A DNA stretch of 64,000 nucleotides from Minwuia sp. (lineage in GTDB: Bacteria > Pseudomonadota > Alphaproteobacteria > Minwuiales > Minwuiaceae): the NCBI GenBank assembly GCA_029213165.1, contig JARGNO010000014.1, forward strand, positions 1 through 64,000. Reading direction: 5' to 3'. The position numbers and the translations under genes were made by a program. Below, one piece after another: positions 7,525-45,828 of this stretch; the stretch's first letter is position 1; each line of letters starts with the position of its first letter. The notes under the pieces are model-generated. The model searched no databases and was not told where the DNA came from. It saw only the letters and a list, made by a program, of their open reading frames with translations.

Positions 7525-7574
7525 TGTCTCATTCTCCCTGTCGCCCCGCCGGCGACCATAGCGGGTTTCACACA

Positions 7575-7733
7575 TGCGGGCGGCAGGTTTCCTGGCTTGC
7601 GTCTGGTGCGGCTGTCCGGCCTTCCCGGCCAATCAGGGCCAGTGGCATGTTCGAACATCCTCGACGCATACAGTTGCGGGGGCAGCCACGGATTTGGTCC
7701 CTGATGGGTACGCCGAACCGTGTTCCCTTTTCT
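7575..7733 (-). promoter_or_regulatory. Cobalamin riboswitch upstream of cbtB-cbtA-cobW-cobN-cobO
   Basis: Minus-strand reading gives GGGAA...AAATCC...CCCCCGCAACTGTA...GCCACTG...GGGAAGG...AAGCCAGGAAACCTGCCG (B12 box at 7581-7598), in canonical order. Confidence 0.93.
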
Positions 7734-7740
7734 CATCCGC

Positions 7741-7850
7741 CCTTCCCTTGTGGGTCAGACGGAACCGTCACGCAGGATTGACCTTACAGTTGCCCCCTGC
7801 ATGGCGCAACAACGCGATCAGGATTTCACCGGGCACAACGCCGTGTTGCG
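7741..7850 (-). promoter_or_regulatory. Second, partial cobalamin-aptamer-like unit (no B12 box of its own)
   Basis: Minus-strand reading gives CCCGGTGAAATCC...GGGGGCAACTGTAAGG...ACCCACAAGGGAAGGG directly 5' of the canonical riboswitch. Confidence 0.6.
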
Positions 7851-14791: not shown

Positions 14792-15817
14792 TTACCGGCC
14801 TGGCCTGCGCCCGGTCATGATCGTCAGGATCTCGAACAGCATCTGGCCACCGACCTGCGCGGTATTGGTGGTGGCGTCATATTGCGGTGCCACCTCCACC
14901 ACGTCTCCGCCGACGATGTCCAGCCCGTCGAGGCCACGGAAAATCTGCTGCACCTCACGCGGGGTCAGGCCACCGACTTCCGGTGTGCCGGTGCCGGGGG
15001 CGAAGCCGGGATCGATGCCGTCGATGTCGAAGGTGACATAGACCGGTCCGTCACCGAGCACACGACGCGCAGCCGCGATCACCGCCGGGATGCCCTGCTC
15101 CATCACCTTCTCGATGTGGAAGACCGTCATCCCGGCGTCCTGCGAGAACTCCCAGATGTATTCCGAAGCACCACGGATGCCGATCTGGATGCAGCGTTCC
15201 GGATCCAGCACGCCGTCCAGCACCGCCATGCGAAAAGGACCACCGTGATGGAACTTGCTGTGATCGAACTCGCCACCCGTATCGCAATGGGCGTCGATAT
15301 GGATCATGCCGAGCGGGCGGTCGCGCCCCAGCGCCTTCATGATCGGATAGGTGATGGAATGGTCTCCGCCCACGGACAGGGGACGCACCCCGGCATCACG
15401 GATCGTGTTGTAGTAGGCCTCGATGTCTTCCATTGCCATGTCGAGGCTGAAGCGGCTGCGGAACGGCACATCGCCCACGTCACCAACCTTCGCCTCCAGG
15501 AACGGCGCGCGGGCCAGGATATGGTGCCAGGGGCCGATCCGCTCGATCGTGCGCACGGCGCGGGGGCCAAAACGGGCACCGGGCCGGTTGGTGACGCCCA
15601 GATCCATCGGCACGCCGACCAGCGCGATATCCAGGCCGTCCAGCCCCTCCACCGCCGGTGCCCCCAGAAAAGTCGGTATTCCGGCAAAGGGCGCATGGCG
15701 ACGCCCGCCATCCTCGAACTGTGAATCCGTGATGGCGCGATAGCGCTCGTCATGGGTGGTGCCGGGCTCCACATCGCCATATCTGGCGCGCAGCCGCTTC
15801 AGGTTTTCCTGATCCAT
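14792..15817 (-). CDS. speB: Agmatinase / arginase family ureohydrolase
   Basis: GGDHSITYP, IHIDAHCDTGG, TFDIDGIDPGFAPGTGTPEVGG metal-binding motifs. Confidence 0.93.
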   Translation of the reverse strand: MDQENLKRLRARYGDVEPGTTHDERYRAITDSQFEDGGRRHAPFAGIPTFLGAPAVEGLDGLDIALVGVPMDLGVTNRPGARFGPRAVRTIERIGPWHHILARAPFLEAKVGDVGDVPFRSRFSLDMAMEDIEAYYNTIRDAGVRPLSVGGDHSITYPIMKALGRDRPLGMIHIDAHCDTGGEFDHSKFHHGGPFRMAVLDGVLDPERCIQIGIRGASEYIWEFSQDAGMTVFHIEKVMEQGIPAVIAAARRVLGDGPVYVTFDIDGIDPGFAPGTGTPEVGGLTPREVQQIFRGLDGLDIVGGDVVEVAPQYDATTNTAQVGGQMLFEILTIMTGRRPGR

Positions 15818-15840: not shown

Positions 15841-15928
15841 GTGGACCGTGCCGCCCCTCGCCCCCTCCCGGCCACCCACGGGATTATCCTGAAATGGGTC
15901 GCCAGGAGGCGGGGGCGGCACGGTCCAC
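15841..15928 (-). repeat. Long-hairpin repeat element, copy A
   Basis: About 36-bp imperfect inverted repeat GTGGACCGTGCCGCCCC.../...GGGGCGGCACGGTCCAC; core/loop GACCCATTTCAGGATA (minus strand) shared with copy B at 43471-43550. Confidence 0.8.
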
Positions 15929-15942
15929 CAAGAATCAATCCG

Positions 15943-16782
15943 CTACTTGCCGCTGAACTTCGGTGCGCGGCGTTCGACGAAATGTGCCACGCCTTCCTTG
16001 AAGTCCTCCGAATCGAAGCTGCCCGGCATTTCCGAGTTCGCTGTCAGGGTGGCGTGCTCCAGCGACTGCAGCATGGCCTTGTAGACCTGCGACTTCATCA
16101 CCCGGATGGAACGCGGCGAGACCATCGTTGCCAGTTCATCGGCATAGGCGTGACACTGGTCGGCGAAGTCCGCCATCTCGATCACCCGGTTGACCAGCCC
16201 CATCGACTGCGCCTCGGCGGCACCGAACTTGCGGCCCGACAACAGCAGGTCCAGCGCGTTGGCGTGGCCCACCAGCATCGGCAGCATCCAGGAAATGCCA
16301 TGCTCCGCGATCAGGCCACGGCGGGAGAAGGCGGTGGTGAAGACAGCCGCGTCGGAGGCGAAGCGCATGTCGCAATACAGCGCCATGACCATGCCCAGCC
16401 CGGCACACGGCCCGTTGATCGCCCCCAGCACCGGCTTCGGCACCGTCGGGAAATAGCTGTAGCGCATGGTGTAGTCCGTCGGCAGGTCCAGCCCGCCCGG
16501 AATGGCATTGTTCACCGCACTGAGCGACTGGATGCGGGACTTCGCGGAGGCCGCCTCGTCCTGGATATCCCCCAGCAGGTTCATGTCTGCCCCGGCGCAG
16601 AAGCCACGGCCCGCGCCGGTCAGCACGATGGCGCGCACGGCGTCGTCATTCGATGCCTCCAGCATCGCCTCCCGCACCTCCGCCTCCATCTTCCGGGTCC
16701 AGGCGTTGAGCTGGTCGGGACGGTTCAGGGTGATGGTGGCAACCGCGCCGTTGCGGTCATAGAGCACTTCCGAAAGGTTCAT
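15943..16782 (-). CDS. Enoyl-CoA hydratase/isomerase family protein
   Basis: ATITLNRPDQLNAW...AIVLTGAGRGFCAGADM...KPVLGAINGPCAGLGM crotonase motifs. Confidence 0.93.
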   Translation of the reverse strand: MNLSEVLYDRNGAVATITLNRPDQLNAWTRKMEAEVREAMLEASNDDAVRAIVLTGAGRGFCAGADMNLLGDIQDEAASAKSRIQSLSAVNNAIPGGLDLPTDYTMRYSYFPTVPKPVLGAINGPCAGLGMVMALYCDMRFASDAAVFTTAFSRRGLIAEHGISWMLPMLVGHANALDLLLSGRKFGAAEAQSMGLVNRVIEMADFADQCHAYADELATMVSPRSIRVMKSQVYKAMLQSLEHATLTANSEMPGSFDSEDFKEGVAHFVERRAPKFSGK

Positions 16783-16882
16783 GGTTTCCCTCCCCAGGAT
16801 CACGCTGCCGACAGGGGCCAGCACATTGACTGGCCACAGGATAGCGCCATGGTAGGGCATGGTCATCAGGGAGGATGATGGA

Positions 16883-18909: not shown

Positions 18910-18986
<77 letters not shown>

Positions 18987-36879: not shown

Positions 36880-36897
36880 TCCGATACCGTTCAGACG

Positions 36898-36936
36898 GAT
36901 AGTGGCATCGCAGGCCAGGCCCACGATGCCACTATC
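36898..36936. terminator. Terminator-like perfect hairpin between convergent genes
   Basis: GATAGTGGCATCG (36898-36910) / CGATGCCACTATC (36924-36936), 13-bp perfect arms; no T tract. Confidence 0.55.
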
Positions 36937-36984
36937 GTCAGTTGACAAGGCAGTCTTCCCGTTGGAACGGGGCGAGAGCCGGTC

Positions 36985-37818
36985 TCAGTCGGCAGCGTCC
37001 TTGATCATGTGGATGGCACGCTGCGGGAACGGGATCTCGATACCCAGCTCGTCCATCTTCTCCTTCATCGCCTGGGTGAAATCGAATTTCAGGCCCCAGT
37101 AGTCACCGGCGTTGCACCAGAGACGGATGGTGATGTCGACGGAACTGTCGCCCAGGTTGGAAACGACGATCTGCGGTGCCGGCTCCTTCAGCACCCGTGC
37201 GTCGGCCCCGGCCATCGCATTCAGGGCCTTCATGGCCTCCACATGACTGGAGCCATAGCCAATGCCAAGCACGAAGTCGCACCGGCGCGTGGCATGGTGG
37301 CTGTAGTTCTTGATCGCCGTGTTCCAGAGCGAACCGTTCGGCACGATGATGTGGACATTGTCAGCCGTGTGCATCTCGGTCACGAACAGCGACACGGAAT
37401 CGACCGTTCCGGAAACACCGCCCCCTTCGATGAAATGCCCCTGACGGAAGGGACGGAAGGCCAGGATCATCACGCCGGCGGCAAGATTGCCCAGCGTGCC
37501 CTGGAACGCCAGGCCGATGGCGAGGCCTGCGGCACCCATGACCGCGACAAAGCTGGTGGTTTCGACACCGAACTGGTCCAGCGCGGCGATGATGGTGAAG
37601 GCAATAACGCCATAGCGGGCAACGGCAGCAACAAAGTTGGTGATCAGCGGATCCGTCTTCTTCGACCGGCCCAGCATGCTGCGCACGGCGCGGCCCACCC
37701 AGCCAGCGGCGATGAAGCCGACCACCAGGATGACGATGACACCAACCACCGCAATGGCATATTCCGCTGCGTAAGTGACCAGAAAATCCACTGTTTCCGA
37801 GGCTTTCTCAGAGTCCAT
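36985..37818 (-). CDS. Small-conductance mechanosensitive channel MscS family
   Basis: GAAGLAIGLAFQGTLGNLAAGVMILAFRPFRQGHFIEGGGVSGTVDSVSLFVTEMHTADNVHIIVPNG. Confidence 0.95.
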   Translation of the reverse strand: MDSEKASETVDFLVTYAAEYAIAVVGVIVILVVGFIAAGWVGRAVRSMLGRSKKTDPLITNFVAAVARYGVIAFTIIAALDQFGVETTSFVAVMGAAGLAIGLAFQGTLGNLAAGVMILAFRPFRQGHFIEGGGVSGTVDSVSLFVTEMHTADNVHIIVPNGSLWNTAIKNYSHHATRRCDFVLGIGYGSSHVEAMKALNAMAGADARVLKEPAPQIVVSNLGDSSVDITIRLWCNAGDYWGLKFDFTQAMKEKMDELGIEIPFPQRAIHMIKDAAD

Positions 37819-43131: not shown

Positions 43132-43458
43132 ATGTCACAACCTGACGCCGAATTCCCCGGAGGCCACGACACCGCAACGGCCCGATATCAGGCCAATGCC
43201 CGGTCAACGCTGATCGCCTATCTGCTCTGGTTCTTCCTCGGCTGGCTTGGCCTGCATCGTTTCTATCTCGGCCGGGTGTTCTCAGGAATCATCATGCTGC
43301 TGCTCTGGGGTGCCGGAACCGGCCTTGCCGTGGTCTTCATCGGCTACCTGCTGCTGGTACCCTGGGCCATCTGGTGGTGCCTCGACGCCCTGCTGATCCC
43401 CGGCATGGTCCGCGCGGAGAACAACGCCGTCGTGGACCGGATCGAACGCGGGAACTGA
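43132..43458 (+). CDS. TM2 domain-containing protein
   Basis: AYLLWFFLGWLGLHRFYLGRVFSGIIMLLLW TM2 motif. Confidence 0.92.
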   Translation: MSQPDAEFPGGHDTATARYQANARSTLIAYLLWFFLGWLGLHRFYLGRVFSGIIMLLLWGAGTGLAVVFIGYLLLVPWAIWWCLDALLIPGMVRAENNAVVDRIERGN

Positions 43459-43470
43459 CTGATTGCGGAT

Positions 43471-43550
43471 CGTTCCACCCCTCTCCCCCTCCTGGCCACC
43501 CATTTCAGGATACTTGCGTGGGTGGCCGGGACGGGGAGAGGGGTGGAACG
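43471..43550 (+). repeat. Long-hairpin repeat element, copy B
   Basis: Near-perfect 32-bp arms CGTTCCACCCCTCTCCCCCTCCTGGCCACCCA / TGGGTGGCCGGGACGGGGAGAGGGGTGGAACG; loop TTTCAGGATACTTGCG; core shared with copy A (15841-15928). Confidence 0.85.
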
Positions 43551-43566
43551 GCCAGCGCAAAGCCTC

Positions 43567-45828
43567 TTACTGCCGCGCCATCTCCGCGTTGGCGATCATC
43601 TCCCCGTCCAGACCGCGCGCCTGATGCAGCCGGACACTCACCCGGTGCAACTCGCCCGTGAAGCTGTAGGGCGCTTCATAGGCACCGACCGGGCTGCCCC
43701 GGTCCCGTCCGATATCAAGACCTGACCAGGAAATGAACGGGCCGAAGGTCAGGGGGGTATGCAGTGATCCGGCCTCCTGCCCGTCGATCAGCAGCCGGTA
43801 GGTGATGCCGTCGCCGTCCGTGTCGTTGCGGGCGGTCAGACCGAGTTCCTTCGTTCCCGAAGGGATCGCCGCTGGCGACCGCAGCACCGTCATCTCACCG
43901 CCGATATTGGTGGCATGAACCAGGTGACCGTCGGCGTCGATGTAGAGGGAATAGCCGGACGTGGCATCGCCATGGGCCAGCAGTATCCCCTCCGGCACCG
44001 CATCGCCGATCCGCACGTGTGCGGTAATGTCATAGTCGCGGCTGCGGATATCCGGGGCGACTTCGGTCGGAATGTGTCCCATGCCCCAGTGGAAGTCGAA
44101 ACGGGTCCGCGCGCCCTGATGACGCTCCGCGTTCTCCGCGAAGCGGGCGGCAAAGCGGTCATCCAGCGGCAGAACGTTCTTCTCTGCCGCCTCCTGCCAC
44201 CAGCGATCGATCATCGCCTGCAACTTCTCGGGATGCGCCCCTGCAACATCGGCGCTCTCCGAGAAATCCGCGTCCAGGTGATAGAGTTCCCAGACATCAT
44301 CGTCGAACGGCGTGCCCGGCGGATGGAACGCCACCGCCTTCCAGCCACCCAGCCAGAGACCACGGTGGCCGAACATCTCGAAATACTGCGGCCTATCGCG
44401 TGACGGTGCCTCGGCATCCTTCAGGCTGGCGGCGAAACTGACGCCCTCAAGCGGCATCTGCGGCACGCCATTGACCTCATCCGGCGGCGCGATACCGACA
44501 ATCTCCAGCAGGGTCGGCACCAGATCGCTGACATGGGCGAACTGGTGACGCAGGCCACCTTCCCGACCCAGACCGTTCGGCCATGAGATCACCAGCGGGT
44601 CGCGGATGCCCCCGCCATGGGTGTTCTGCTTGTAGCGTTTCAGCGGCGTGTTGGCCGCCATCGCCCAGCCGAAGGGGAAGTTGGAATGGGTATCCGGGCC
44701 GCCGATGTCGTCGATGCGCGCCAGCTTTTCCGCCACCGGTTCCTTGCGCCCGTTGTAGGGACCCATGGCATTGACGAAGCCGAAGGGCCCGCCCTCCTGA
44801 CTCGCGCCATTGTCGGACATGACGATGATGATGGTGTCATCGCGCACGCCCGCCTTCTCCAGAAACCCGACCAGGCGGGCGAGGTGCTGGTCGGCATGGT
44901 CCAGCATCGCGGCATAGGCGGACTGCAGCCGGGTGAAGACCTTCTGCTCATCCGCACTGTGCTGGTCCCAGGGGCGGACATTGTCGTTGATCGGCGGCAG
45001 CACGGTATCCTGCGGCACCAGCCCCAGTTCCTTCTGCCGCGCCAGCCTGCGCTCCCGCTCCACATCCCAGCCGCCGCTGAACATGGCATCATAGGACTTG
45101 ATCAGGTCGAAGGGCGCCTGATGCGGCGCGTGGCAGGCACCGAACGACAGCAGGGTCATCCAGGGCACGCCGGGCTGCTCCGCGATGTGGCCGGACAGGT
45201 ATCGGATGGCCTGATCCACCAGATCGGACGTCAGGTGATAGCCGTCGGCAAAGGTGCCGGGCGGGTCGATGTGGGAATTGTCCTGCACCAGTTCCGGCGC
45301 GTACTGGTCAGTCTCCGCATCCATGAAACCGTAGAACCGGTCGAACCCCCGCCCCAGCGGCCAGCCATCGAACGGCCCCGTCGCCCCGGTTTCCGTCAGC
45401 GGCGTGACATGCCACTTGCCCAGCATGTAATTGCGATAGCCCTGCCCCCGCAGCATTTCCGCAATGGTGCCTGCCTGCTTCGAGATCTTGCCGGTATAGC
45501 CGGGATAGCCGCTGTCGAAGTTCGCCAGACTGCCGACACCGACGGAGTGATGGTTCCGCCCGGTCAGCAGCGCGGCACGGGTCGTGGAACACATGGCTGT
45601 CGTATGGAATCCCGAATAACGCAGCCCTTCACCCGCCAGCGCATCAATGGTCGGGGTGCGGATCGTCGAGCCGTAGCAGCCGAAGTCGGAAAATCCGACA
45701 TCGTCGAACAGCACCATCAGGATGTTCGGCGCCCCCTTCGGTGCGGCCACGCGATCCGGCCACCAGGGCTCCGATTCCGAAATCGTCCGTCCGATCTTCC
45801 CCGGAAACACCTTGTTGTCTTCCGTCAT
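43567..45828 (-). CDS. Arylsulfatase (sulfatase family, CSTTR active-site variant)
   Basis: APNILMVLFDDVGFSDFGCYGS, MCSTTRAALLTGRNHHSVG, GKWHVTP, MSDNGASQEGGPFG. Confidence 0.92.
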   Translation of the reverse strand: MTEDNKVFPGKIGRTISESEPWWPDRVAAPKGAPNILMVLFDDVGFSDFGCYGSTIRTPTIDALAGEGLRYSGFHTTAMCSTTRAALLTGRNHHSVGVGSLANFDSGYPGYTGKISKQAGTIAEMLRGQGYRNYMLGKWHVTPLTETGATGPFDGWPLGRGFDRFYGFMDAETDQYAPELVQDNSHIDPPGTFADGYHLTSDLVDQAIRYLSGHIAEQPGVPWMTLLSFGACHAPHQAPFDLIKSYDAMFSGGWDVERERRLARQKELGLVPQDTVLPPINDNVRPWDQHSADEQKVFTRLQSAYAAMLDHADQHLARLVGFLEKAGVRDDTIIIVMSDNGASQEGGPFGFVNAMGPYNGRKEPVAEKLARIDDIGGPDTHSNFPFGWAMAANTPLKRYKQNTHGGGIRDPLVISWPNGLGREGGLRHQFAHVSDLVPTLLEIVGIAPPDEVNGVPQMPLEGVSFAASLKDAEAPSRDRPQYFEMFGHRGLWLGGWKAVAFHPPGTPFDDDVWELYHLDADFSESADVAGAHPEKLQAMIDRWWQEAAEKNVLPLDDRFAARFAENAERHQGARTRFDFHWGMGHIPTEVAPDIRSRDYDITAHVRIGDAVPEGILLAHGDATSGYSLYIDADGHLVHATNIGGEMTVLRSPAAIPSGTKELGLTARNDTDGDGITYRLLIDGQEAGSLHTPLTFGPFISWSGLDIGRDRGSPVGAYEAPYSFTGELHRVSVRLHQARGLDGEMIANAEMARQ

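Follow-up and report, generated by a model that had tools for sequence, protein, structure and literature searches.

The window analysed here is a stretch of 64,000 nt from a Minwuia genome, which contains two copies, A and B, of a long-hairpin element as well as a riboswitch and a tRNA gene detected with Rfam. Copy A had been placed by the preliminary description at 15841-15928 in minus sense, 14 nt after the stop of a minus-strand crotonase gene; these coordinates and the sequence are exact, and the gap between the crotonase stop (15943, minus) and the hairpin is 14 nt as claimed. In the transcribed direction, the crotonase gene is the upstream neighbour of copy A. The agmatinase encoded on the other side has its best relatives in Minwuia MAGs and in 'Kordiimonadales' IMCC3096, in line with a Minwuia genome. 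Copy B lies between two convergent genes. The features of the window are as follows:

7565-7785, minus strand: Cobalamin riboswitch (Rfam, 112 bits)
14792..15817, minus strand: arginase/agmatinase-family gene (Pfam PF00491, E=5.7e-85), start 23 nt past copy A
15841..15928, minus strand: copy A, complete hairpin of 88 nt (positions 1-91 of the model; covariance model R1, folding)
15841..15864, minus strand: copy A 3' outer arm GGGGCGAGGGGCGGCACGGTCCAC (sequence, alignment)
15865..15878, minus strand: copy A 3' core stem TGGGTGGCCGGGAG (sequence, alignment)
15879..15894, minus strand: copy A loop TTTCAGGATAATCCCG (sequence, fold, alignment)
15895..15908, minus strand: copy A 5' core stem CTCCTGGCGACCCA (sequence, alignment)
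15909..15928, minus strand: copy A 5' outer arm, type I, GTGGACCGTGCCGCCCC... (sequence, alignment, arm typing)
15885-15905, minus strand, and 43492-43512, plus strand: 21-nt core CTGGCSACCCATTTCAGGATA (chance expectation zero)
15932..15936, plus strand: GAATC, a GANTC motif of the CcrM methylation type, within the 14 nt that separate copy A from the crotonase stop
15943..16866, minus strand: enoyl-CoA hydratase/isomerase (crotonase) gene (Pfam PF00378, E=1.5e-51; gene call)
18910-18983, plus strand: tRNA gene (Rfam)
43132..43458, plus strand: TM2-domain protein gene, whose stop is 6 nt from copy B (convergent neighbour)
43465..43557, plus strand: copy B, full hairpin (covariance model R1, 94.2 bits; fold z -9.4)
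43503..43518, plus strand: copy B loop TTTCAGGATACTTGCG (sequence, alignment)
43567..45828, minus strand: sulfatase gene, the other convergent neighbour, with its stop about 10 nt from copy B

The core said to be common to both copies occurs twice in the window and in none of 100 shuffles. Each copy forms one long hairpin, as RNA and as DNA. RNA folding gave -77.1 kcal/mol (z -7.6) for a 110-nt piece with copy A and -81.5 kcal/mol (z -9.4) for a 121-nt piece with copy B, with 0 of 200 shuffles as good in either case, and the z-scores for DNA folding were -8.2 and -8.8, respectively. Copy A scores 73.3 bits in minus sense and 53.7 bits in plus sense with covariance model R1, and its 5' outer arm is about 4 nt shorter than that of the family in the alignment. 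The type-I arm pattern is common to the two copies (GGACCGTGCCGCCCC versus GGATCGTTCCACCCC), with one arm of copy B left unclassified by the automatic typing. A different near-perfect hairpin, GATAGTGGCATCG...CGATGCCACTATC, lies at 36895-36939, behind the minus-strand gene 36985-37818 and at a distance of about 46 nt from its stop; this hairpin has a weak covariance-model score (E=0.04) and is not a sequence relative of copies A and B.

A known Rfam family was rejected as an identity for the element, since only the Cobalamin riboswitch and the tRNA exceeded the gathering score in the window and the sub-threshold matches at copies A and B were generic hairpins, mainly animal and plant microRNA models. 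A plasmid-borne element was rejected as well, as copy B had no match in 72,556 plasmids. We found no description of the hairpin family or of its core string GGGTGGCCGGG in open-licence full texts, and on this basis it appears to be previously undescribed.

Copies A and B belong to one hairpin family of about 91 nt, and the proposed repeat element is therefore real. A covariance model of 91 nt with 35 pairs was built from 39 aligned members, and the genome search suggested beforehand returned about 60 copies in this Minwuia genome (G000) and many in its relatives, with 64 copies in the complete genome of one of these (G002). Among the 387 alphaproteobacterial genomes sampled, 33 from many families had matches, with rough E-values and a first-look filter that scored at most 150 candidates per genome. 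BLAST and pattern searches also yielded tens of copies. No copies were detected in two genomes of the genus Minwuia, G003 and G006.

From the centre outward, an element consists of the loop, a nearly invariant core stem, a CCCTCTCCCC-type stem and an outer arm. The core stems CCCGRCCACCCA and TGGGTGGYCGGG enclose a loop of about 16 nt with AGGATA, which comes as ATTTCAGGATACTTGCG or ATAAGGATAATCCCG types. Across the matching genomes the core stem CCCGRCCACCC/GGGTGGYCGGG is constant and the loop is variable. The outer arms had been described as variable but paired, and they do differ between copies while being complementary within each. However, they are not freely variable and fall into four discrete types, assigned by hand-written patterns: CCGTTCCnCCCC, CTGTTCCATCCC, CCCGGCCwGCCC and GCACCGGCCC. 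The ends have the consensus GTGGACC/GGTCAGC followed by AAACRACTCCC, and the latter forms a hinge outside the arm in Minwuia, where elements often have a hinge with GANTC (AAACGACTCCC) and sometimes additional arm copies beyond it. About 20 elements carry a further arm copy 11-14 nt outside, five of them on both sides in concentric shells. Matches to single arm words elsewhere were largely background when two mismatches were allowed.

Several side observations concern individual copies. In L223 (G002 1531018) and L224 (G002 1549817), arm and hinge are repeated beside the element with a period of about 31-32 nt, which suggests that a half unit of 31 nt can be duplicated in tandem as well. L212 (G002) and L261 (G000) combine type-IV arms with an extra outer pairing CTAGATCGTTCCA...TGGAACGATCTAG, and this subtype is similar to copies from other families (L164, L170). 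Assembly breaks and gaps are a common consequence of long palindromes, and the draft contigs of G000 often break inside element copies (contig ends C37:1, C38:1, C71 end, C112:1, C118 end and C54 end) or carry N runs in them (C103:8823, C95:16040 and L254 near 2900).

The genomic context was evaluated for 91 copies, namely the 64 of G002 and 27 of the about 60 of G000, with genes in the fetched loci called by a codon-bias caller. None of the 91 copies lies inside a gene; all are intergenic, with 60 in codirectional, 20 in convergent and 11 in divergent gaps. Divergent gaps are under-used compared to gaps of at least 110 nt (p=0.001). Between codirectional genes, the copies lie at a median of 18 nt from the upstream stop, in contrast to 62 nt from the downstream start (p=2e-7). 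Since the copies are intergenic and located just past stops, most of them should be transcribed in 3' UTRs. This tight placement, together with the codirectional and convergent contexts and the depletion of divergent ones, speaks for a 3'-UTR hairpin under selection, which would stabilize the upstream mRNA or act in rho-assisted termination and whose arms would be maintained by compensatory mutation. Nevertheless, a position past the stop is general for REPs too, which adjoin the 3' ends of upstream ORFs at varying distances to downstream ORFs (PMC3733652). The strand of the loop bears no relation to the direction of transcription (27 copies on the same strand, 33 on the opposite one), which counts against an RNA element and led to the rejection of the loop as a strand-specific RNA signal. 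A U-tract is also missing: in 59 of the 60 codirectional copies, no 8-nt stretch after the hairpin has more than four T, and T is scarcer past the hairpin than in the background (mean count 1.4 versus 2.1). The elements are therefore not intrinsic terminators, and a terminator scanner reported none at copy A.

The preliminary description had linked the self-complementary arms to structure-level selection. Their covariation is strong: 95.1% of the cells are paired, so the arms of the family do remain complementary, and 15 pairs have changed on both sides. Doubly changed cells number 113 versus 35 in shuffles, and the paired share falls to about 50% when the structure is slid. Such covariation far above shuffles would be expected of an RNA element. 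However, selection on RNA structure would favour G-U over A-C mismatches and transitions over transversions, because G-U is allowed in RNA and double changes by transversion cannot pass through a G-U intermediate; it would also not produce loop flips. The mismatches on the transcribed strand show no G-U preference (49 G-U versus 42 A-C, p=0.53); with an interval of about 0.43-0.64 for the share of G-U, a weak bias would still be compatible with these counts.

A comparison of orthologous sites in three Minwuia species provides a second view of the same arms. At the site of copy A, G001 (L050) and G002 (L051) hold orthologues with type-II arms versus type I in G000, and two more distant relatives have no copy there. 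A total of 54 orthologous pairs among the three species are occupied in both members, counting elements that are shared across the three species comparisons, so that the pairs are not fully independent. The flanks of these sites are 91-93% identical, and many of the sites are ancestral to the three species. The persistence of a hairpin at orthologous sites agrees with an RNA element. Other family members are often closer to an element than its orthologue, which has a median rank of roughly 11 of 64 (hand-computed). The arm type differs in 24 of 48 typed pairs, the arms switch as blocks, and hybrid elements with one arm of each of two types occur. In 16 of 54 pairs, i.e. about 30% (5/23, 8/19 and 3/12 by species pair), the loop has the reverse orientation with respect to the flanks, including cases with conserved outer arms (L256:11691 versus L227:3076). 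For the 42 gap-poor pairs, both arms have changed at 92 columns versus 16 expected (odds ratio 38), and 79 of these 92 columns are paired in both species. Of the 79 double changes, 45 are transversions.

RNA-level selection as the cause of the arm covariation is thus only partly supported. The conserved core and the co-varying arms of the earlier claim hold, and selection at the RNA level is not demonstrated in view of the mismatch, transversion, block and flip data. We consider the selected 3'-UTR hairpin unlikely as the principal explanation, although it retains a noticeable share of plausibility. The 95% pairing is above what drift alone leaves, and hence some selection for a hairpin, whether RNA or DNA, may also act; that the sites are so often still occupied likewise makes selection for keeping a hairpin possible. 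Covarying base pairs are the standard argument that an RNA structure is functional, whereas here an exchange of palindromes at the DNA level can yield it. The ratio of G-U to A-C mismatches and the share of transversions offer two simple tests to separate the two.

Turnover at fixed sites could also result from mobility. A MITE- or REPIN-like non-autonomous element moved by a transposase might insert repeatedly at favoured sites and thereby leave varied occupants in varied orientations, which would be in line with the tens of copies in either orientation and with the repetition of arm words 12-13 nt beyond some copies. The orthologous sites speak against this, as the flanks are conserved right up to the element in both species. 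Ten apparently empty sites included neither a clean empty site nor a target duplication; most of them hold decayed, partial or still hairpin-bearing remnants, which points to losses through decay by internal palindrome deletion and not by clean excision. In addition, a search for the Y1 (PF01797) transposase of the RAYT type gave no match in G000-G004, G006, G007 and G036 and one in G008, while control genomes did give matches. A RAYT-driven REPIN was rejected for this reason, and REPIN-type mobility is unlikely at present given that the Minwuia genomes searched lack a Y1 transposase. Overall, a mobile element is decidedly improbable, and recurrent insertion at the same sites is a less likely alternative to conversion.

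The explanation that we regard as probable is that of an old, class-wide REP/BIME-like family of intergenic palindromes, whose copies recombine with each other as DNA and whose arms evolve in concert without necessarily being selected as RNA. Because every copy is a near-perfect palindrome, copies could recombine in either orientation by non-allelic gene conversion. In addition, replication or repair might allow each hairpin to correct one of its arms from the other. Orientation-blind copying combined with such arm correction would produce complementary arms, concerted evolution and loop flipping, with no need for RNA selection. The step from the pattern to gene conversion and template switching as the mechanism is one that we infer from sequence comparisons, and no donor copy is proven for any single conversion event. 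A cellular role, if there is one, is proposed more cautiously and might be that of an exonuclease-blocking 3'-end hairpin or of a DNA-level site like the BIMEs of E. coli, and not that of an intrinsic terminator. Among the putative functions, protection of mRNA 3' ends is the likeliest candidate.

The distribution of the copies along the chromosome of G002 bears on a role at the DNA level. When parS (sites at 1.774-1.783 Mb) is used as a stand-in for the origin, 45 of 64 copies fall within the quarter nearest to it (V-test p=1.5e-13). If the distance to the terminus is divided into eight equal steps, the successive counts are 29, 16, 9, 1, 3, 2, 4 and 0. The GC skew of this genome changes sign between about 1.7 and 2.4 Mb in a weak and irregular manner, and dnaA (about 1.53 Mb) is located directly upstream of copy L223. 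Moreover, GANTC occurs within 25 nt of an end at 44 of 91 elements versus 12% of intergenic ends (p=1e-10). Both findings would fit a DNA element of the origin domain to which a nucleoid, gyrase or methylation-linked factor binds, comparable to BIMEs, whose hallmarks include gyrase and IHF binding and mRNA stabilization. However, the origin bias is borderline in G036 from another family (9 of 16 copies in the first two steps, V-test p=0.05), and G267 has no such bias, with three copies near parS and three near the terminus. The GANTC enrichment is absent in other genera (3/26) and has no clear gradient from the origin (0.44 near, 0.32 far). Furthermore, the core region near the origin may simply retain old copies better, and the bias in G002 may have arisen through better survival in this conserved region. 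We therefore consider a bound chromosomal site very improbable. Origin clustering as a class-wide rule was rejected, as G267 speaks against it and G332 has just two copies; the bias is strong in G002, and its generality beyond this genome is not shown. As an observation on the G036 assembly itself, the contig ends (11596/4604932 and 23096/4616432) contain equal-scoring pairs at the same offset, which suggest that this circular genome has an untrimmed end overlap of 27.5 kb.

A related but distinct reading treats the elements as interchangeable cassettes at fixed, mainly origin-proximal sites with GANTC-marked ends, i.e. as a replication- or methylation-linked feature of the chromosome and not of RNA. 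Here, arms and loop orientation would be continually swapped by orientation-blind recombination while each site keeps a hairpin. We give this reading little credence.

Regarding known systems, the family shares with REP/BIME elements, such as the PU-BIMEs of E. coli and the GTAG- and CGTC-tagged REPs, that it comprises tens of intergenic palindromes near 3' ends, mainly in codirectional and convergent gaps. In this broad sense, as a multi-copy, extragenic family adjacent to 3' ends, it is REP/BIME-like. Membership in the tagged REPs was rejected, as the Minwuia unit has about 91 nt and a 35-bp stem in contrast to 20-40 nt and a CGTC-type stem of 8-9 bp or similar, and no fixed unpaired GTAG or CGTC tag was recognised at its ends. 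In contrast to REP/RAYT systems, no RAYT was found in the Minwuia genomes searched. Arm-type exchange, loop inversion at fixed sites and the origin clustering in G002 further distinguish it from REP/BIME elements, and the last of these adds an origin-clustered repeat from a little-studied alphaproteobacterial order. ERIC/IRU, the RIME of Rhizobium and the YPAL of Yersinia are likewise dispersed intergenic near-palindromes of about 100 nt with a predicted RNA fold, with cores that we take to be unrelated to that of the Minwuia family. The loop flips resemble the hairpin-associated small inversions reported for chloroplast genomes, in which a loop flanked by short inverted repeats changes orientation from one related genome to another; unlike those, the Minwuia hairpin is a dispersed repeat family whose arms turn over too. 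Gene conversion was proposed for the evolution of REPs long ago, to judge from the title of Higgins et al. 1988 as cited in PMC2267715, and the turnover at orthologous Minwuia sites provides direct comparative evidence for this old idea of gene conversion as the way in which extragenic palindromes evolve.
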